Origin: Pseudomonas sp. SLFW
Lineage (GTDB): Bacteria > Pseudomonadota > Gammaproteobacteria > Pseudomonadales > Pseudomonadaceae
Direction of reading: 5' to 3'
NCBI RefSeq assembly: GCF_009905615.1
Contig: NZ_JAAAKW010000014.1
Coordinates: 1-64,000, forward strand
DNA length: 64,000 bases
In this document: piece by piece, positions 5,243 to 60,072 of the stretch
Layout: each line of letters opens with the position of its first letter
Numbering within the stretch: position 1 is the first letter of the stretch
Translations under genes and position numbers: made by a program
Notes under the pieces: model-generated
Told to the model about the DNA's origin: nothing
Databases searched by the model: none
The model's input: only the letters and a program-made list of their open reading frames with translations

Positions 5243-6727
5243 CTAGCGTTCCAACTGTGCGACCGCGTGTGGCGAGAGAGGTTCTGTCTCCGGGGCTTTT
5301 GACGGGTCTTGCAACACCTTCATCGTCGAGGCTTCCGGGTCGAACTCGGTGACCTCGTCTTCCCTATGTTCTTCCGGCAGAAAGATGTTGAGCAGGATCG
5401 CGCAGAAGGCGCCCACTGTGATCGGCGATTCGAAGATGTTGTGCAGCGCCTTTGGCAACTCGCGCAGGACTTCAGGCACCGCCGCCACACCCAGGCCCAT
5501 CCCCAGTGAAATCGCCACGATCAGCATGTTGCGCCGATGCAGCCCGGCTTCGGACAGAATCTTGATCCCGGCCACTGCCACGGTGCCGAACATGATCAGC
5601 GTCGCGCCACCGAGCACCGGCTTTGGCATCAATTGCAGCACGGCGCCGATGATCGGGAACAGGCCCAGCAGCACCAGAATCCCGGCGATGAAAAACGCCA
5701 CGTAACGGCTGGCCACGCCGGTCAGCTGGATCACGCCGTTGTTCTGGGCGAACGTCACCATCGGCAGGCTGTTGAACGTCGCGGCCATGGCCGAGTTGAG
5801 GCCGTCGGCCAGGAGACCCGATTTGATCCGGCGGATGTACACCGGGCCGCTCACAGGCTGCTGGGAAATCATCGAGTTGGCCGTCAGGTCGCCCGCCGCT
5901 TCCAACGGGGAGACCAGAAAGATCACCGCAATCGGGATGAATGCCAGCAGGTCGAAGGAAAAGCCGTACTTGAACGGCACCGGAATGCTCATCACCGGCA
6001 CCTGCGGCATGTGCGCGAAATCAATCCGGCCCATGTACCACGCCACCAGAAAGCCCAGCGTCAGCCCGATGATGATCGCGCTCAGGCGCAGCAGCGGAAT
6101 ATTGAAACGGTTGAGGACCACAATCGTGACCAGCACCAGTGCGGCCAGTCCGAGGTTGGCGGCCGAGCCAAGGTCCGTGGCGCCGAAGCCGCCCGCCATG
6201 TCGGTCATTGCCACTTTGAGCAATGACAGGCCCATCAGTGTGATGATCGTGCCGGTCACCACCGGAGTGATCAGCTTGCGCAATTTGCCGATGAACTGGC
6301 TCAGCACCACCTCGACGAACGCGGCGCAGAAACACACGCCGAAGATGGTCGAGAGGATTTCGTCGGTGCCACCTCCGCGACTTTTCACCAGAAAACCGGC
6401 ACTGAGGATCACGCTGAGAAAGGAGAAACTGGTGCCTTGCAAACACAACAAGCCCGAGCCGATGGGGCCGAAGCGTTTGGCCTGCACGAACGTGCCGAGG
6501 CCGGACACGAACAACGCCATGCTGATCAGGTAGGGCACTTCGCTGTCCAGACCCAGCACGCCGCCGACGATCAGGGTCGGGGTGATGATGCCGACGAAGC
6601 TGGCGAGCACGTGTTGCAGTGCGGCGAAGATCGCGGCCGTGAAGTGCGGGCGGTCGTTGAGCCCGTAAATCAGGTCGGTTTTTCTGGCGGTCGGGCGCGA
6701 AGGGGAACTGCTTTGAGGTGTGGTCAT
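5243..6727 (-). CDS. NCS2 nucleobase:proton symporter, XanQ-like (xanthine/urate)
   Basis: Inner-membrane purine permease of the nucleobase-ascorbate transporter family, 494 aa with 12-14 hydrophobic segments. The family signature is clear: MVTFAQNNGVIQLTGVASRY contains QNxGxxxxT in the substrate-binding helix, and PLEAAGDLTANSM carries the conserved acidic residue of helix 8. Together these point to the xanthine/urate group (XanQ/UacT) rather than uracil permeases. I start at the ATG at 6727 (MTTPQ...) rather than an upstream in-frame start that would add 23 non-hydrophobic residues. The 380 bp upstream hold two copies of a TTGTGTACAA-like sequence, suggesting control by a GntR-type purine regulator. 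Confidence 0.87.
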   Translation of the reverse strand: MTTPQSSSPSRPTARKTDLIYGLNDRPHFTAAIFAALQHVLASFVGIITPTLIVGGVLGLDSEVPYLISMALFVSGLGTFVQAKRFGPIGSGLLCLQGTSFSFLSVILSAGFLVKSRGGGTDEILSTIFGVCFCAAFVEVVLSQFIGKLRKLITPVVTGTIITLMGLSLLKVAMTDMAGGFGATDLGSAANLGLAALVLVTIVVLNRFNIPLLRLSAIIIGLTLGFLVAWYMGRIDFAHMPQVPVMSIPVPFKYGFSFDLLAFIPIAVIFLVSPLEAAGDLTANSMISQQPVSGPVYIRRIKSGLLADGLNSAMAATFNSLPMVTFAQNNGVIQLTGVASRYVAFFIAGILVLLGLFPIIGAVLQLMPKPVLGGATLIMFGTVAVAGIKILSEAGLHRRNMLIVAISLGMGLGVAAVPEVLRELPKALHNIFESPITVGAFCAILLNIFLPEEHREDEVTEFDPEASTMKVLQDPSKAPETEPLSPHAVAQLER

Positions 6728-6786
6728 GGTTAGCCTGCCAATTGTTTTTATTCGGTCGTGGGCTTTGCAAGTGACGCAGTCCGAAC

Positions 6787-6796
6787 CTGTACACAA
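6787..6796 (-). promoter_or_regulatory. Candidate GntR-type operator, copy 1
   Basis: CTGTACACAA, which read on the minus strand is TTGTGTACAG. It matches the 10-bp site at 6867 in nine of ten bases but in the opposite orientation, with centres 80 bp apart, and lies 60 bp upstream of the permease start. Similar TTGTATACAA sites serve purine-catabolism GntR regulators; assignment is by resemblance only. Confidence 0.45.
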
Positions 6797-7523: not shown

Positions 7524-8957
7524 ATGTACCCAGACGTTCAGCTTTATATCGACGGCCAATGGCGCGCCAGTGAAAACGGTCGCACCCTCGCGGTCATCAA
7601 CCCGGCCACCGGCGACACCCTGGGCACTGTCGCCCATGCCGACATTGCCGATCTGGACAAAGCCCTCGCCGCAGCCGAGCGCGGTTTCGAAACCTGGCGC
7701 AGCACCCCGGCCTATGACCGCTACAAAATCATGCAGAAAGCCGCGAACCTGTTGCGCGAGCGCGTTGACAATATCGCCAGCATCATGACCCAGGAACAGG
7801 GCAAACCACTGGCCGAAGCGCGCATGGAAACCCTGGCCGCTGCTGACATTATCGACTGGCTCGCTGAAGAAGGCCGCCGCGCCTATGGCCGTCTGGTGCC
7901 GTCGCGCAACGCGTCCGTCGAGCAGAAAGTCATCAAGGAGCCGGTGGGTCCGGTCGCGGCTTTCACTCCCTGGAACTTCCCGATCAACCAAGTCGTGCGC
8001 AAACTGTCCTCCGCGCTGGCGGCCGGTTGCTCGATCATCGTCAAGGCCCCTGAAGAAACCCCGGCATCGCCTGCCGAGCTGATCCGCGCCTTCATTGACG
8101 CAGGCGTGCCGGCAGGTGTGATCGGCTTGGTCTTTGGTGATCCGGCACAGATTTCCAGCTACCTGATCGCGCACCCGATCATCAAGAAAGTCACCTTCAC
8201 CGGTTCCACCCCGGTGGGCAAGCAACTGGCCGCCCTGGCCGGTCAGCACATGAAGCGCGCCACCATGGAACTGGGCGGTCACGCCCCGGCGCTGGTGTTC
8301 GATGACGCGGACCTGGACCTCGCAGCCCGCACATTAGCAGGCGCCAAATTCCGTAACGCGGGCCAGGTGTGCGTGTCGCCTACGCGTATCCTCGTGCAGC
8401 GTGGCGTTTATGAGCAGTTCATCGAGAAGTTCGTGGGCCTGACCCATGAGGTGAAGGTGGGCAACGGTCTGGAACAGGGCGTGACCATGGGGCCGTTGGC
8501 CAACGAACGTCGTGCCCCGGCCCTGACCTCGCTGGTGAAGGATGCGGCTGACAAAGGCGCCAAACTGCACACCGGCGGCCAATCGGTCGACGGTCCGGGC
8601 TATTTCTTCCAGCCGACGGTGCTCAGCGGCCTGACCACCGAGATGCGCATCATGAACGAAGAGCCGTTCGGGCCAGTCGCGCTGATCGTGCCGTTCGACA
8701 CCGTTGAAGACGCGGTAAAAGAATCCAACCGCGTGCCGTTTGGTCTGGCGTCGTATGCGTTCACCACCTCGATGAAAACCGCACACATCCTCAGCACCCG
8801 GATCGAGGCTGGCATGCTGTCGATCAACCATCAGGGCATCGGTCTGGTGGAAGTGCCGTTCGGCGGGATCAAGGATTCCGGCTACGGTTCGGAAGGCGGG
8901 ACCGAGGCCATTGAGGCGTACCTGAACACCAAGCTGGTGACGGTGTTCAATCTGTGA
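7524..8957 (+). CDS. NAD(P)-dependent aldehyde dehydrogenase (succinate-semialdehyde-like)
   Basis: Soluble oxidoreductase of 477 aa turning an aldehyde into a carboxylate. The catalytic Cys is C283 in GQVCVSPTR and the general base is E249 in MELGGHAP. The cofactor segment FTPWNFP is at 148-153 and [10 protein letters not shown] follows near residue 225. The family resembles succinate-semialdehyde and 2-oxoglutarate-semialdehyde dehydrogenases (GabD/AraE type); the exact substrate is not determined. GGAG lies 10 nt before the ATG. An intrinsic terminator stands 19 bp after the stop, so it is probably monocistronic or co-transcribed only with the upstream ArsR gene. Confidence 0.85.
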
Positions 8958-8975
8958 GATTGCGCTGAACCAGGG

Positions 8976-9002
8976 AAGCCCACCATCTGGTGGGCTTTTT
9001 TG
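8976..9002 (+). terminator. Intrinsic terminator after the aldehyde dehydrogenase gene
   Basis: AAGCCCACC (8976-8984) / GGTGGGCTT (8989-8997), 4-nt loop, running into a T tract. A strong factor-independent terminator. Confidence 0.92.
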
Positions 9003-9124
9003 TGGGTGTCTCTCACAACGGTTACGGCAGGGGCCCGGCGCCGGTCCGGCAATTCGCTGAACTCCTGTCCGGCCCCCGAACTCTCACCCTCAGATCATCC
9101 CGATCTGTGGAGCAGGGATTCACC

Positions 9125-10594
9125 ATGACCGTCGCGAGCGTCGATTCAGCAGCGGAGCAGGCCAAGGGCAGGGTGTTTGAAACCGACCTTCCGTCGCGTC
9201 TGGACCGCTTGCCGTGGGGCGGTTTCCACACATTGCTGGTGTTTGCCCTCGGCATCACCTGGCTGCTCGACGGTCTTGAGGTCACGCTGGCTGGGTCGGT
9301 ATCAGGGGCGCTGAAAGAGAGCCCGGTGCTGCGCCTGAACAACGCCGACATTGGGTTGGCGGGTGGCGCCTACATCTGCGGCGCCGTCCTGGGGGCGCTG
9401 TTTTTTGGTTGGCTGACCGACCGCCTTGGGCGACGCAAGCTGTTCTTCATCACCCTGGCCCTCTACATCTGCGCCACGGCCGCCACGGCGTTTTCGTTCA
9501 GCCTGTGGAGCTTCATGCTGTTCCGGTTCCTGACCGGGATGGGCATCGGTGGCGAATACACGGCGATCAATTCGACCATCCAGGAATTCACCCCGGCGCG
9601 GTTTCGCGGCTGGGTCGATCTGACCATCAACGGCACCTTCTGGATCGGGGCGGCGCTCGGGGCGGGCGGCTCGATCATTTTGCTGGACCCTGGCTGGATC
9701 GGCGGCGACCTGGGCTGGCGCTTGTGCTTCGGCATCGGTGCGTTGCTCGGGCTGGTGATTTTGCTGATGCGCCTGTGGCTGCCAGAAAGCCCACGCTGGT
9801 TGCTGATCCATGGCCAGGCCGAAGAAGCAAAAGCCATCGTCGAAGGCATCGAAGCGCGCTTTCGTGAGCAAGGCCATGACCTGCCTGAGCCGAGTGGAAA
9901 AAAACTGCGCCTGCATGCGCGGGATCACACGCCGTTACGGGAAATCTTCGACACGCTGTTCAACACCTATCGCCAGCGCGCATTGGTCGGCCTGACGCTG
10001 CTGACCGCGCAGGCGTTTTTCTACAACGCGATCTTCTTTACCTATGCGTTGGTGCTGACCGAGTTTTATCAGGTGCCGTCAGCGTCGATTGGCTGGTACG
10101 TGTTGCCGCTGGCACTGGGGAATTTCTGCGGACCGTTGCTGCTGGGCAGGCTGTTTGACGTGGTAGGGCGGCGGGTCATGATCAGCCTGACGTATGCGGT
10201 GTCGGCCGTGCTGCTGAGCATCAGCGGCTACCTGTTCGAACAAGGCGTGCTCAACGTCACCCAGCAAGCCATTGCCTGGATGATCATCTTTTTCTTTGCC
10301 TCGGCAGCGGCCAGTTCGGCTTACCTCACTGTGGCCGAAACCTTCCCGCTGGAAATCCGTGCGCTGGCGATTGCGGTGTTCTATGCGTTCGGCACCGCGC
10401 TGGGCGGGATTGTCGGACCGACGCTGTTTGGCGAGTTAATCGACAGCCATGAGCGGGGGCCGGTGTTCATCGGTTACCTGATCGGCGCCGCGTTGATGTT
10501 GCTGGCGGCGGCGGTACAGGCGATCTGGGGCGTGGCGTCCGAGCGCAAATCGTTGGAAGACGTCGCTCGACCGTTGTCGCAGGCGAGTGATTAA
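9125..10594 (+). CDS. MFS metabolite:proton symporter
   Basis: Inner-membrane transporter of 489 aa with 12 predicted helices. MFS motif A reads GWLTDRLGRRKLFF after helix 2, and FRFLTGMGIGGEYTAINS is the conserved helix 4-5 region; the central loop is long (about residues 210-265). This places it with the sugar-porter/organic-acid symporter branch, close to proteins often labelled as niacin or sialate transporters. The substrate is not predictable. I start at the ATG at 9125 because AGCAGGGA precedes it; an upstream frame extension runs through the terminator of the previous gene and is not credible. Its position after the semialdehyde dehydrogenase suggests, weakly, a related substrate. Confidence 0.8.
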   Translation: MTVASVDSAAEQAKGRVFETDLPSRLDRLPWGGFHTLLVFALGITWLLDGLEVTLAGSVSGALKESPVLRLNNADIGLAGGAYICGAVLGALFFGWLTDRLGRRKLFFITLALYICATAATAFSFSLWSFMLFRFLTGMGIGGEYTAINSTIQEFTPARFRGWVDLTINGTFWIGAALGAGGSIILLDPGWIGGDLGWRLCFGIGALLGLVILLMRLWLPESPRWLLIHGQAEEAKAIVEGIEARFREQGHDLPEPSGKKLRLHARDHTPLREIFDTLFNTYRQRALVGLTLLTAQAFFYNAIFFTYALVLTEFYQVPSASIGWYVLPLALGNFCGPLLLGRLFDVVGRRVMISLTYAVSAVLLSISGYLFEQGVLNVTQQAIAWMIIFFFASAAASSAYLTVAETFPLEIRALAIAVFYAFGTALGGIVGPTLFGELIDSHERGPVFIGYLIGAALMLLAAAVQAIWGVASERKSLEDVARPLSQASD

Positions 10595-55057: not shown

Positions 55058-55807
55058 TTACGGTGCCAGCGCCTTCGCCACGCTCCCGTCTGCTTTCAAC
55101 TGAGCGAAGGCCTGGGTCACGCGCTGGACCGTGTCAGGCGGGGTTTTCAGGCTGAGGGCGACGTAGAGGCTCTGGGAAAGGTCGTCGATGGTGTACACGT
55201 TTTCCAGCAGGTCGAAGGAGACGTTCAGGTCGCGGCACTGGTCGCGGGCTTCTCGCTCGGGCATGGGCACCAGTGCAACCTGGCCGCTGAGCAGCTTGCG
55301 CAGGTTGTCGAGGTTGTTGGCGGAGACCACCATTCTGCTGAAATGCTGGCTTTCCAGGTATTGCTGGCGGGCGTCGTCACGGACGACGCCAATGGTGAAT
55401 TTCTTCGCGTCTTGCAGCGTACCGACGGCGACGTCTTTTCGCTCACGCAGTTTGAAGAACACCTGAATCACCGGTTCGAGCTCGCCCACCCAGTGAAACT
55501 GCGTCTCGCGCCCGGCGTTGCGGATCATGGGGTAAATCACCACGTTCGGTTCCAGCCGCGCCATGTCGTACGCCCGCGCCCAGGGGTACAGGGCCATGTG
55601 GTAATCCTTGAGTCCTGCATTGATGAGGGTCTTTTCGACGATCTCGCTGGCCGGGCCCGCGACTTTGCCGTCCTGGAGCCAGCTGTAGGAGGAATCCTCA
55701 GTGACGACGTGCATCGTCTCGGCCTGGGCGCTCAGGCCCACCAGCATCAGGACGGTGGCCGATAACACGCCCAAGCGCTGTTTGATCGAATAGCGGGTAC
55801 GGCGCAT
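55058..55807 (-). CDS. Periplasmic binding protein (SBP family 3), third gene of a cyclase cluster
   Basis: Exported protein of 249 aa, signal peptide ending GLSAQA-ETMH. It has the amino-acid-binding-protein type fold (HVVTEDSSYSWLQDGKVAGP, ASEIVEKTLINAGL, LSGQVALVPMPEREARDQ). It shares PWARAYDxA...PNVxIYxxxRxxxREtxFxWVG with the protein at 57178, so the two are paralogues flanking one diguanylate cyclase. No ABC permease or ATPase is nearby, which suggests a sensory or cyclase-linked role rather than transport. Confidence 0.82.
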   Translation of the reverse strand: MRRTRYSIKQRLGVLSATVLMLVGLSAQAETMHVVTEDSSYSWLQDGKVAGPASEIVEKTLINAGLKDYHMALYPWARAYDMARLEPNVVIYPMIRNAGRETQFHWVGELEPVIQVFFKLRERKDVAVGTLQDAKKFTIGVVRDDARQQYLESQHFSRMVVSANNLDNLRKLLSGQVALVPMPEREARDQCRDLNVSFDLLENVYTIDDLSQSLYVALSLKTPPDTVQRVTQAFAQLKADGSVAKALAP

Positions 55808-55828
55808 GTCGCATTCTCCCTGATCGGG

Positions 55829-57175
55829 TCAGATCTCACACCGGTTGCGGCCCTGACTTTTGGCGCGGTACAAGGCTTTGTCGGCGCTTTGCAGCAGTTG
55901 ATCGAAACGGTCCATGTTGGCGGGGTCGAGTTCGGCGATGCCGATGCTCATCGTCACGTACGGCGACACCCCCGAGCCTTTGTGCGGCAGCTTCTGGTCG
56001 GCGAGCAGCGCCTGCAAACGTTCGGCGGAGCACAGGGCCTGTTCGCGGCTTTGTCCGGGCAGCAGCACCGCGAACTCTTCGCCACCCAGGCGTGCCACCA
56101 ATTCGCCGGAGCGCGAAAACAGCGCGCTCATGGTCAACGCCACATCGCGCAGGCACTGATCGCCATTGGCGTGGCCGTAGTTGTCGTTGTAGAGCTTGAA
56201 ATAATCGATGTCGCACATCAGCACCGAGAAGGCTTGCCGATGGCGCAAGGCGCGGTTGAATTCCAGCTCTTTCACTTCGTCGAAGTGACGACGGTTGGCA
56301 AGGCCTGTGAGAGGGTCGAAGCGGGTCATGGCCTCCAGCCGGGTATTGGCAGCCTTGAGCTGGGCGGTGCGTTGCTCCACCAACTCGGCCAACTGATCGC
56401 GGCTGGCGGCGAGGGCCAGTTCGTCGCGGGTCTGGCGTTCGAGGTGATTGGCCAGTTTGTCTTGCAGGTCGTTGACCCCGGCTTCCAGCAGGTCCAGCTC
56501 GTCGCTGGCCTTGCTGCCGCGCCCGAGCGCCAGATGGTGTTTCAGGTTCTGCGGCGTCAGTTGTTCCAAGTGCTCGGCGATACGGCGCACATGCAGGGTC
56601 ACCGAACGGTTGAACATGCCCATGATCAACCCGGCCAGGGCCAGCGACTGAATGATCTGAGTCAGCATGATGACCGCGACTTCCTTCCACAGCCGTTTCC
56701 ACAGCAGGCTTTCGTCGCCCTCGATGGTCAGCTCACCGACCACTTCATTGGCGCCGGGGTAGGGGACGACTGTCAGTTGACGGTGCAGCGCGGGGGCGAG
56801 TGATGAAGTGCCATGGCCCGGATGCTGACGCTCCAGCACTTCCGGTGGCCGGCCGGGGCGCAGAATGCGCAGCTCGACGCGGCCCACTGGCGCCGCAAGG
56901 GCCACGCTGTCGATTTGCGTTTGCAAGGCCTCGTTGTCCATTTCCCAGACCGCTTTGGACAACGTGCCCTGGAACACCTGGTCGATCAGACCGAGTTCGG
57001 CGTTCATATTGGAGAGGTTGGTGTTCCAGGCGAAGCAGGTCCTGACGGTGACGGTGGCCACGGTGAACAGAATGCAAAACGCCAGCGTCGCCAACACCAG
57101 CCTGCGCGCCAATGAGCCGGCTCGCGGGGGCGCGGCGGCGTTTTCAGGGATCTTGGACTCGGACTCAGCCAGCAT
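55829..57175 (-). CDS. Membrane-bound diguanylate cyclase (GGDEF)
   Basis: Protein of 448 aa. Two membrane helices (RLVLATLAFCILFTVATVTV near residue 25-45 and EVAVIMLTQIIQSLALAGLI near 165-185) enclose a periplasmic domain of about 120 residues. A HAMP-like stretch and a coiled coil lead to a GGDEF domain (RFDPLTGLANRRHFDEVKEL; CDIDYFKLYNDNYGHANGDQ) with active motif GGEEF, so it should make c-di-GMP. The inhibitory site RxxD is RSGE here, with Glu for Asp. Start at ATG 57175, 2 bp after the stop of the upstream binding-protein gene (TGAGCATG), so translation is coupled; the gene at 55058 follows 21 bp downstream. Confidence 0.88.
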   Translation of the reverse strand: MLAESESKIPENAAAPPRAGSLARRLVLATLAFCILFTVATVTVRTCFAWNTNLSNMNAELGLIDQVFQGTLSKAVWEMDNEALQTQIDSVALAAPVGRVELRILRPGRPPEVLERQHPGHGTSSLAPALHRQLTVVPYPGANEVVGELTIEGDESLLWKRLWKEVAVIMLTQIIQSLALAGLIMGMFNRSVTLHVRRIAEHLEQLTPQNLKHHLALGRGSKASDELDLLEAGVNDLQDKLANHLERQTRDELALAASRDQLAELVEQRTAQLKAANTRLEAMTRFDPLTGLANRRHFDEVKELEFNRALRHRQAFSVLMCDIDYFKLYNDNYGHANGDQCLRDVALTMSALFSRSGELVARLGGEEFAVLLPGQSREQALCSAERLQALLADQKLPHKGSGVSPYVTMSIGIAELDPANMDRFDQLLQSADKALYRAKSQGRNRCEI

Positions 57176-57177
57176 GC

Positions 57178-57948
57178 TCAATTCCATTTACGTGCTATGG
57201 CATCGTAGGTTCCGTTCTCACGGACAGTCCTCAGCCCTTTCTCAAACAGCCGAACAGTAGCATCCGGGGTCCCTCGGCTGAAAGCCATGCTGAACCCGCC
57301 TGCTTCTTCCAGCTCGGGCACACGCAAGGATTGCACCAGAGTCTGCGCCGGGTTGTCTCCCGCCTGATGGGCAATGTAATTGGCGTTCAGCTCGTCGGAG
57401 ATCCACAGGTCCACGTGGCCGGTGCGCAGCTTCTGGTAATTGAGTTCGTAGCGGTTGCTCGATTGCAGCTGGCGGCCGACCTTGAAGCGCCTGCTCATCA
57501 GGTATTGCTCGCCGACGTCCTCGTTGACCGTTGCGGTCTGCCAGTCGCGGGCGTCGTCCAGGTCAAACAGCGAGATGGGGTGGGTCGAGGAGGAATAAAT
57601 GAACCAGCGCGACGCGGCGATGGTGCCGACCCATTTGAACAGCGGCTCGCGTTCGACGGTGCGGGTGATGGAATAGATCAGCACGTTGGGGTCGTGCAGC
57701 GCCAGATCGTAGGCCCGGGCCCACGGCATCGACTGAATGGTGGCGTCGACGTTCACTTCCTTGAGGACCGCGCGCACCACCTCAGTGCTCATGCCGGTCA
57801 ACTGGCCGTCCCGGGTCATGTTATAGGGCGGCAACTCTTCGGTGACGATCCGGATCGGTTCGGCGCTCGCCCCGAGAACGCTCAGGCACAGCAAAACCGC
57901 GCCGTACAACACGCTGCGTGTCTTTATCTTGAGCGTTAGGGGAGCCAT
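57178..57948 (-). CDS. Periplasmic binding protein (SBP family 3), first gene of a cyclase cluster
   Basis: Exported protein of 256 aa with signal peptide ending LGASA-EPIR. SBP-3 fold: IVTEELPPYNMTRDGQLTGM, STEVVRAVLKEVNVDATIQS, PWARAYDLALHDPNVLIYSI, LRTGHVDLWISDELNANYIA. The ligand is unknown; relatives bind amino acids or opine-like compounds. It is the first gene of a three-gene unit with a GGDEF protein and a second binding protein. The gap upstream to 58289 carries an ANR-type box that serves the divergent cyd operon. Confidence 0.84.
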   Translation of the reverse strand: MAPLTLKIKTRSVLYGAVLLCLSVLGASAEPIRIVTEELPPYNMTRDGQLTGMSTEVVRAVLKEVNVDATIQSMPWARAYDLALHDPNVLIYSITRTVEREPLFKWVGTIAASRWFIYSSSTHPISLFDLDDARDWQTATVNEDVGEQYLMSRRFKVGRQLQSSNRYELNYQKLRTGHVDLWISDELNANYIAHQAGDNPAQTLVQSLRVPELEEAGGFSMAFSRGTPDATVRLFEKGLRTVRENGTYDAIARKWN

Positions 57949-58288: not shown

Positions 58289-58486
58289 ATGCCCGGTCCC
58301 TTCGATTTCCTCAAACACCCCTTGGCGAAAGAAATAGGACTGATCCTGTTGATCAAGCTCGTCCTGTTGATGGGCATCCGTAGCGTCTGGTTCGACGCGC
58401 CGGTCGAAGTCAAGGATGACGGGGTGCAAGCTGGCCTGCATGTATTGGGCGCCCCTCCCGTATCTGATGAGAAGAACCCAAAATGA
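58289..58486 (+). CDS. cydP: Cytochrome bd small subunit CydP
   Basis: Small membrane protein of 65 aa. One transmembrane helix ([20 protein letters not shown]) follows a short [14 protein letters not shown] start, and a polar tail follows. It matches the CydP-type small proteins encoded just before cydA in Pseudomonas and other proteobacteria. The stop overlaps the cydA start by 4 bp (ATGA). Confidence 0.82.
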
Positions 58487-60072
58487 TTTCGGAATCAGTC
58501 GTCGACCTCTCTCGGCTGCAGTTCGCGATGACCGCGCTGTATCACTTTATCTTCGTGCCGCTCACGCTGGGCATGACGTTTCTGCTGGCCATCATGGAGT
58601 CGGTGTACGTCATGACCGGCAAGCAGGTCTACAAGGACATGACCAAGTTCTGGGGCAAGCTGTTCGGCATCAACTTCGCCCTCGGTGTCACCACTGGCTT
58701 GACCATGGAGTTCCAGTTCGGCACCAACTGGGCGTATTACAGCCATTACGTCGGAGACATTTTCGGCGCCCCGCTGGCCATCGAAGGCTTGATGGCGTTC
58801 TTCCTGGAATCGACTTTCATCGGCCTGTTCTTCTTCGGCTGGGACCGCCTGACCCGCGTGCAGCACTTGACCGTCACCTGGCTGGTGGCGATCGGTTCGA
58901 ACATGTCGGCGCTGTGGATTCTTATCGCCAACGGCTGGATGCAGAACCCGGTCGGCGCCGAGTTCAACTTCACCACCATGCGCATGGAGCTGACCAGCTT
59001 CGCCGACCTGCTGTTCAACCCGGTTGCGCAGGTCAAGTTCGTGCACACCGTGGCGTCCGGTTACGTGACCGGTTCGATCTTCGTCCTGGCGATTTCCAGC
59101 TGGTACCTGCTCAAGGGCCGCGACATCGGCTTCGCTCGCCGTTCCTTCGCCATCGCTTCGGCATTCGGCATGGCCTCGATCCTGTCGGTGATCGTGCTGG
59201 GTGATGAATCCGGCTACGAAATCGGCGACGTGCAGAAGACCAAACTGGCGGCCATTGAAGCCGAATGGGAAACCGAGCCTGCACCGGCCGCGTTCACCCT
59301 GTTCGGGCTGCCGAACCAGGAAACCCAACGCACCGATTACGCGGTCAAGATTCCTTACGTGATGGGCATCATCGCCACCCGTTCGGTGGACAAACAGGTC
59401 ACTGGCATCAAGGATTTGGTCACCGAGCATCAAGGCCGCATCCGCAACGGCATGGTCGCCTACGACCTGCTGGGCAAACTGCGCGCGGGCGACAAGAGCG
59501 AGCAAACCCTCACTGCCTTCAACGATGTGAAGAAAGACCTGGGCTACGGACTGCTGTTGAAGAAATACACCGACAAGGTGGTGGACGCCGACGAGCAGCA
59601 GATCAAGCAGGCCGCACTGGATTCCATCCCGCACGTCGCGTCGATTTTCTGGACCTTCCGCATCATGGTCCTGAGCGGTGTGCTGATGCTGGCGCTGTTC
59701 GCCTGTGCCTTCTACGCCTCGGCGCGCAAGAACGAATCCAGCAAGCGCTGGTTGCTGAAATGGGCGCTGTTCAGCCTGCCGCTGCCGTGGATCGCCACGC
59801 AGACCGGCTGGTGGGTGGCCGAGCACGGTCGTCAGCCCTGGTCCATCGGTGAAGTGCTGCCGGTTCACCTGTCGGCGTCGACCCTGTCCAGCGGCGATGT
59901 CATCGGCTCGATCCTGGCGCTGGTGGGCTTCTACACCGTCCTGCTGATCATCGAGATGTACCTGATGATCAAGTTCGCCCGCCTGGGCCCAAGCAGCCTG
60001 CACACCGGTCGCTACCACTTCGAGCGCCGCGAGAGCGACGTGCCTGCCGCCCCACAACCGACGCTGGCCTGA
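58483..60072 (+). CDS. cydA: Cytochrome bd ubiquinol oxidase subunit I, long Q-loop type
   Basis: Inner-membrane oxidase subunit of 529 aa that oxidises quinol and reduces O2. Heme ligands: His21 ([14 protein letters not shown]), His in [11 protein letters not shown] near 187, Met in FRIMVLSG near 393. The Q-loop is long and E. coli-like ([20 protein letters not shown] and [15 protein letters not shown]), unlike the short-loop CioA of P. aeruginosa. GRQPW is conserved ([13 protein letters not shown]). The enzyme should be the high-affinity bd-I type. Overlaps cydP; cydB starts 10 bp after. Confidence 0.94.

Follow-up and report, generated by a model that had tools for sequence, protein, structure and literature searches.

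The DNA considered here, hereafter the window, is a stretch of 64,000 nucleotides from Pseudomonas sp. SLFW (positions 1 to 64,000 of contig NZ_JAAAKW010000014.1, assembly GCF_009905615.1). Its minus strand carries three tightly packed genes (Table 1). The middle one encodes a membrane diguanylate cyclase, a producer of cyclic di-GMP (c-di-GMP); those on either side encode paralogous periplasmic solute-binding proteins (SBPs), SBP1 upstream and SBP2 downstream. An earlier, sequence-only reading of the locus described three genes on one strand separated by gaps of 2 and 21 bp, and the open reading frames (ORFs) agree. The gap between the cyclase and SBP2 genes is 21 bp. The gap of 2 bp separates the SBP1 gene from a second in-frame ATG of the cyclase gene, an alternative start at 57175; counted from the ATG at 57187, the cyclase gene overlaps the SBP1 gene by 10 bases. 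The same reading took the cyclase for a GGDEF protein (motif GGEEF) with two membrane helices and a periplasmic domain. Pfam and hydropathy bear this out, the two hydrophobic segments enclosing about 120 residues. By hydropathy, SBP1 and SBP2 have a single hydrophobic stretch apiece, at the N-terminus.

Table 1. Features of the three-gene unit, with window positions and the basis of each assignment.
Feature	Position	Strand	Basis
SBP1, periplasmic binding protein of the SBP_bac_3 type	57178..57948	minus	256 aa ORF; signal-peptide-like N-terminus; Pfam SBP_bac_3, E 8e-14
Membrane diguanylate cyclase	55829..57187	minus	452 aa ORF from ATG 57187; Pfam GGDEF, E 6.4e-51; two hydrophobic segments
Cyclase transmembrane segment 1 (residues 30-48)	57044..57100	minus	hydropathy
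Periplasmic CHASE5-like domain of the cyclase (residues 53-169)	56681..57031	minus	profile-profile alignment with CHASE5 genes
Cyclase transmembrane segment 2 (residues 170-188)	56624..56680	minus	hydropathy
HAMP-like and coiled linker	after transmembrane segment 2	minus	named by analogy; CHASE5 alignment continues through the linker
GGDEF domain, with GGEEF (residues 368-372) and RSGE at the place of the RxxD inhibitory site (residues 359-362)	55841..56320	minus	
SBP2, second periplasmic binding protein, paralogue of SBP1	55058..55807	minus	249 aa ORF; homology to SBP1

Within its own genome the arrangement is not a common one. Among 45 GGDEF genes in 6.49 Mb, only this one has a match to the Pfam family SBP_bac_3 (PF00497; E up to 0.001) within 2 kb; the next-nearest such match lies 2.8 kb from a GGDEF match, in a control that misses SBPs too divergent for SBP_bac_3. 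A promoter scan found none, against 0.4 expected, which is weak evidence in either direction.

The earlier reading staked its case on the triplet being kept in other genomes, and it is: the triplet is a real, conserved three-gene unit. A search of 149 genomes of the genus found close relatives of the cyclase (E up to 1e-70) in 18, counting the genome of the window, and at 19 loci, since G080 has two. The order and strand of SBP1, cyclase and SBP2 are the same at all 19, again counting the window; at two of them (L023 and L024) SBP1 is truncated, and at L027 the reading frame of the cyclase stops early. Named contigs were then scanned with the N-terminal half of the cyclase; of the 139 relatives found, the best 80 were analysed. 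They come from Pseudomonas, Stutzerimonas, Rhizobacter and two bins labelled only Gammaproteobacteria, and some genomes are common to this set and the genus set. Both SBP genes flank the cyclase gene, in the same order and on the same strand, at 79 of these 80 named loci, and SBP1 and SBP2 keep their own positions in all 79. Frame breaks affect five of these loci, where a single gene runs over two frames (SBP1 in L055 and L056, the cyclase in L061, L070 and L102).

What surrounds the unit varies. With loci linked whenever they have in common an ORF of at least 150 aa (E up to 1e-40, about 4 kb around the unit), the 80 named loci sort into 14 groups without a shared flanking gene. No single inherited neighbourhood therefore keeps the unit together. 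The unit is also carried by Rhizobacter, classed under older naming as a betaproteobacterium, with a cyclase 58-62% identical over the N-terminal half, which suggests that the unit has been transferred as a whole. In P. corrugata and P. mediterranea, and likewise in two relatives, a second GGDEF ORF (641-793 aa) stands divergently beside the unit (L095:2003-3928, L099:2008-3963, L100:2012-3967 and L107:2009-4390, all minus).

The two SBPs are clearly related to each other. They are 31% identical over 244 aligned positions (E 1e-26), their profiles align with a probability of 100 (E 9e-53), and they have in common the PWARAYD and WVG blocks from which the sequence-only reading had recognised them as paralogues. 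That reading also assigned both to the SBP_bac_3 class. The assignment stands for SBP1, which scores 52 bits against a cut-off of 26.4; SBP2 gave no SBP_bac_3 match up to E 0.1 in the Pfam scan, and its best Pfam match, Phosphonate-bd (E 0.0064), is under that family's cut-off. No PotD-type family appears among the Pfam and NCBIfam matches up to E 0.1.

Did a duplication wrap the cyclase between two copies of one gene, as the earlier reading supposed? Paralogy fits, but nearest-sister status does not follow. In a tree of 59 proteins (from 16 of the 80 loci and the window, with 21 other Pseudomonas SBPs and four upstream ORFs), SBP2 forms its own clade with support 100/100 and SBP1 its own with 96/92, the latter including one copy outside any unit. 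SBP1, SBP2 and three orphan SBPs from other loci then form one group (86/96). Because these orphans are grouped with them, SBP1 and SBP2 need not be each other's closest relatives on this tree. The stray SBP1 copy (L211:3915-5006, minus) is 54% identical to SBP1 of the window and has a transposase-like ORF nearby, as judged by eye. Other Pseudomonas SBPs of the wider family are orphans, some in tandem, near genes that by eye resemble hisA, hisF and envC; L214-L218 hold tandem sets of two or three orphan SBP genes, some of them near hisA/hisF-like genes.

The unit could also be read as the remnant of a transporter, and we reject this as far as we have looked. Neither a permease nor an ATPase gene adjoins the triplet among the ORFs and Pfam matches of the window, as the sequence-only reading had said, a layout unlike that of an ATP-binding cassette (ABC) importer operon. 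The 13 regions that hold orphan relatives, L214-L218 included, were viewed by eye without a Pfam scan, and no transporter genes were recognised there. Around 15 representative units, 74 of 76 neighbour ORFs (set A9) were compared with protein families; among 25 of the 79 families matched there is no permease or ATPase, and one SBP of the OpuAC type. To this extent the homologues are, as the earlier reading expected, not companions of ABC permeases. On one side the unit is bordered by an ORF without a Pfam match. On the other stands cydA, the gene for cytochrome bd oxidase subunit I, which is divergent upstream of the unit on the opposite strand (window 58483-60072, plus); L028 has the same neighbours.

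What might SBP1 and SBP2 bind? Residue and divergence counts were taken from rows with long unbroken ORFs (78 for SBP1, 80 for SBP2 and 78 for the cyclase, the window included; 75 loci have all three), and alignment A6 covers 67 of the 80 loci and the window. One arginine, which from its place in the alignment we take to be the carboxylate-binding arginine of amino-acid SBPs, is invariant in 78 of 78 SBP1 rows and 80 of 80 SBP2 rows. The position that we presume, again from alignment, to be the amine-binding aspartate site is varied: in SBP1 it holds Asn in 52, Asp in 20 and Ile in 6 of the 78 rows (Asp in the window), and Asp is not among the commonest residues there in SBP2. Because the arginine is invariant and the aspartate place is not, SBP1 and SBP2 may each bind some kind of acid, a different one for each protein and perhaps for each lineage. 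The missing aspartate would also suit proteins that are not ligand sensors at all, such as enzymes of the binding-protein fold (compare cyclohexadienyl dehydratase) or chaperones of the cyclase. The constancy of the presumed carboxylate-binding arginine argues against these roles, and so does structural comparison: the SBP1 model from locus L042 finds its best matches in 3h7m, the binding domain of a sensor kinase, with VIA Z 25.1 (root-mean-square deviation 2.3 over 219 residues), and in amino-acid SBPs at similar Z. We regard an enzyme or chaperone as very improbable.

The output half of the cyclase appears intact. GGEEF is present in 78 of 78 rows, and the other residues checked (a metal-binding Asp, Phe-Lys and Asn) are invariant in the same 78; judged from the alignment, the catalytic residues of an active diguanylate cyclase are all present. 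The motif RxxD is the inhibitory site of diguanylate cyclases and is dispensable for activity. At its place here the fourth residue is Glu in 76, Asp in 1 and Lys in 1 of the 78 rows, so the site as a rule does not read RxxD, and because it ends in Glu, product inhibition may be weak. The Pfam scan finds GGDEF as the sole output domain, with no EAL.

The input half is more unusual. Its periplasmic part scores 14.2 bits against the Pfam family CHASE5 (PF17149), under the cut-off of 27, and a CHASE5 search of the window's own genome gave no match at E 0.01. The profile of the cyclase nevertheless aligns by hhalign with that of 18 CHASE5 genes over 239 columns (probability 99.8, E 4.8e-28), an alignment that spans the membrane helices and linker as well. 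By profile comparison, then, the periplasmic domain is CHASE5-like: homologous to the family yet under its formal cut-off. Searched by sequence with the N-terminal profile, the PDB yielded four matches, the best at E 0.3, with no sensor among them.

Who else has this N-terminal half? Its profile found 24 places in 20 of 369 genomes of the class, the window included. Twenty of these were studied with wide flanks, the window, G444, G418 and one of two places in G375 being left out. All 15 sensor proteins scanned from these 20 regions exceed the CHASE5 cut-off; 13 have histidine kinase outputs and two GGDEF-EAL. The latter (L135:4198-6591, minus; L146:3241-6012, plus) are CHASE5-PAS-GGDEF-EAL proteins. 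An SBP_bac_3 gene overlaps that of L146 upstream, and no SBP gene lies beside that of L135. L145 has two genes with CHASE5-like regions close together (5368-6792 and 8336-9427, plus), with no SBP gene found beside them.

CHASE5 genes usually have an SBP-like gene for a neighbour. Immediately upstream of the sensor gene, and on its strand, 14 of the 20 regions have a gene for a protein of 241-305 aa that begins like a signal peptide; in one further region this gene is adjacent but divergent. The alignment of these 15 proteins, A5, has rows mostly 29-47% identical to the first, with L146 only 19%. Against SBP_bac_3, seven members fall under the cut-off, one (L146) is over it, and seven give no match up to E 0.01. 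The A5 profile aligns with that of SBP1 with a probability of 96.7 (E 3.5e-10), and by this measure the A5 family is distantly SBP-like.

A second sample, drawn by Pfam CHASE5 matches (E up to 1e-6) in 185 genomes of the class, gives the same picture. There are 22 CHASE5 places in 15 genomes, and in 16 of the 22 an A5-type gene lies less than 1 kb upstream on the same strand (split over two frames in L230). L226 has a weak SBP match (E 0.00095). Directly upstream of a CHASE5 gene that runs off the contig, L246 has a gene of another binding-protein class, Peripla_BP_4 (692-1678, minus; E 4.3e-22). Nine of the 22 places are shared with the first set; among the 13 new ones an A5-type gene is found in 8, or in 10 when L226 and L246 are counted.

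The converse search points the same way. An A5 search (E up to 1e-20) of the same 185 genomes finds 20 places in 13 genomes, and 16 of the 20 adjoin a CHASE5 match. Of the other four, we viewed the neighbourhoods of L247, L248 and L250, out of these and L249: L247 and L250 precede parts of CHASE5-like kinases, by eye, and L248 has no such neighbour. CHASE5 occurs in 15 of the genomes, the A5 family in 13 and both in 12 (hypergeometric 2.5e-15). A5 was built from CHASE5-adjacent genes, with 8 of its 15 rows from genomes within this sample; with the six genomes that donated to the profile removed, the counts become 9, 7 and 6 of 179 (hypergeometric 1.4e-8). Since the genomes are related, both figures are guides and not true probabilities. 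Where a CHASE5 sensor gene in the regions looked at has an SBP beside it, there is one and not two.

Signalling of this kind has precedents. According to the available sections of PMC9993111, the ligand state of the SBP NspS sets the activity of the membrane c-di-GMP enzyme MbaA in Vibrio cholerae and Sinorhizobium meliloti. There, as here, an SBP gene abuts or overlaps that of a membrane c-di-GMP enzyme on the same strand, and the periplasmic domain of the receptor lies between two membrane helices. The parts differ: NspS is a single polyamine SBP of the PotD type, whereas the unit has two SBPs of SBP_bac_3 kinship, and MbaA has about 230 periplasmic residues with GGDEF and EAL, whereas our cyclase has about 120 CHASE5-like residues and GGDEF only. 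In ScrA-ScrB-ScrC of Vibrio parahaemolyticus a periplasmic binding protein likewise controls a c-di-GMP enzyme of the same operon, but ScrA makes the signal, there is one binding protein, and ScrC both makes and breaks c-di-GMP (PMC10269520, in the portions available). CHASE5 sensors with an upstream SBP-like gene share a homologous N-terminal half (membrane helices, CHASE5 and linker) and differ in having mostly kinase outputs and a single SBP, mostly of the A5 type. RmcA of P. aeruginosa couples an SBP_bac_3 fold to c-di-GMP turnover, but with the binding domain within the enzyme itself, which the accessible text of PMC8846402 lists as a phosphodiesterase; its structure (7ejg) matches the SBP1 part of the co-fold model described below with VIA Z 23.3.

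The best reading of these likenesses is that the unit works in the manner of NspS-MbaA with different parts. Its novelty, as far as our searches show, would lie in its receptor domain, which is unusual, and in having a second sensor; the kind of signalling is known. Among the papers listed by our searches of the open-access literature, which leaves most subscription papers outside, and judged by title, opening of the abstract or sections available, we found neither an SBP-cyclase-SBP unit nor CHASE5 described as an SBP receptor, and the available part of a Stutzerimonas biofilm paper (PMC12125118) does not mention the unit.

We consider it likely that the three genes form a sensory unit in which periplasmic SBPs dock on the CHASE5-like domain and steer c-di-GMP synthesis. 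SBP1 and SBP2 would be soluble periplasmic receptors of small solutes that feed no transporter. The docking site for SBP1, and probably for SBP2, would be the CHASE5-like domain of the cyclase, which ligand-dependent docking or release would alter. The change would pass through the second membrane helix, the HAMP-like linker and the coiled coil to the GGDEF domain, and so raise or lower synthesis of c-di-GMP. The case for docking rests on analogy with NspS-MbaA and ScrB-ScrC and on the linkage of CHASE5 genes to SBP genes. SBP1 is most likely the main partner, the upstream position being the usual one in CHASE5 systems; SBP2 may be a derived second input, with another ligand, as an antagonist on the same dock, or as the partner of one half of a cyclase dimer, one SBP to each half. 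The sequence-only reading had already proposed that SBP occupancy is relayed to the cyclase. A periplasmic part related to CHASE5, and the habit of CHASE5 genes of standing beside an SBP-like gene, speak for that relay, which we too infer. Read in this way, CHASE5 would serve periplasmic binding proteins as a dock, and the unit would be a cyclase version to which a second such protein has been added.

Structure prediction is compatible with a partnership of SBP1 and the cyclase. Modelled alone, the N-terminus of the window cyclase has a predicted local distance difference test (pLDDT) of 61.9 and a predicted template modelling score (pTM) of 0.28, with most of the CHASE5 part at 51-61; the predicted order is helix, helix, four strands, helix. 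Locus L042 supplies a natural in-frame read-through that joins SBP1 to the cyclase N-terminus, and this query, with 7 joined and 62 separate rows, gave a co-fold with pLDDT 88.8 and pTM 0.61, the CHASE5 part rising to 80-93. The gain fits SBP1 settling the CHASE5 domain, but is suggestive only.

Several observations weigh against docking. The co-fold and the lone model differ in query, length and alignment, and the comparison has no interface score. Covariation of SBP1 or SBP2 with CHASE5 is not above expectation at the 75 paired loci (effective number of sequences 24): among the top 50, 100 and 200 couplings, SBP1 has 14, 32 and 60 in CHASE5 and SBP2 has 12, 24 and 54, where 14.3, 28.6 and 57.1 are expected from the variable columns, so this comparison says little either way. 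The pairwise distances of the three proteins do correlate (r 0.92, 0.92 and 0.90); this reflects shared history and shows no contact. SBP1 is truncated in L023 and L024, beside the cyclase and SBP2, and in L088 (Pseudomonas typographi) the cyclase has neither SBP gene within the stretch covered. No SBP-like gene stands beside 5 of the 20 CHASE5 regions of the first set, and no binding-protein gene beside 4 of the 22 places of the second (L234, L235, L239 and L240). Finally, the available sections of PMC11113362 report two negatives for P. aeruginosa: the SBP PA4985 did not interact in a two-hybrid test with the CHASE5 domain of the kinase AruS, encoded nearby, and two SBPs encoded near the kinase AgtS did not interact with its SBP_bac_3 domain by calorimetry. 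On these results, closeness of genes is by itself no proof of interaction; the SBPs tested belong to the SBP_bac_8 family, unlike SBP1 (PMC11113362, same sections).

Might the operon then be one of convenience, its SBPs serving receptors or transporters elsewhere while the CHASE5-like domain senses a ligand directly? The CHASE5 genes without an adjoining SBP gene, the AruS result and the absent covariation would all be at home in such an account. It does not explain why the unit stays intact across 14 flanking-gene groups, or why CHASE5 and CHASE5-like genes are linked to several kinds of binding protein (A5 type, SBP1 type and Peripla_BP_4). We judge it improbable.

A more serious alternative keeps SBP1 as the only partner of the receptor and makes SBP2 an old duplicate, retained because it is linked or because it has another task, such as scavenging the ligand or serving a different receptor. 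An upstream SBP is the usual CHASE5 arrangement; SBP2 is above the cut-off of no Pfam SBP family, and it diverges faster than its neighbours, the mean pairwise divergence being 0.354 in the cyclase, 0.389 in SBP1 and 0.484 in SBP2. Yet SBP2 adjoins the cyclase at all but one of the 80 named loci and in all 14 flanking-gene groups, is retained at the two loci where SBP1 is truncated, and keeps R78, R100, R143 and D145 in 80 of 80 rows. We think an idle or unrelated SBP2 unlikely, though less so than an operon of convenience.

A bolder extension of the docking model has some appeal, although we would put it short of probable. CHASE5 may be a general dock for several unrelated kinds of SBP, and the unit a two-input device in Pseudomonas, Stutzerimonas and Rhizobacter by which the cell compares two solutes before making c-di-GMP. 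In such a device a single cyclase dimer might answer to two diverged SBPs that differ in ligand or oppose each other in effect.

For many membrane cyclases we know of no input. In this unit the genes next to the cyclase gene, one on each side, encode the likely input proteins, which seem to be soluble and would lend themselves to ligand screens. With two paralogous sensors, such a cyclase would offer a simple model from nature for the comparison of signals. The more valuable part of the finding is the lead that CHASE5 may be a dock: if CHASE5 does bind such proteins, many CHASE5 kinases and c-di-GMP enzymes would become testable, each with a candidate sensor encoded next door.

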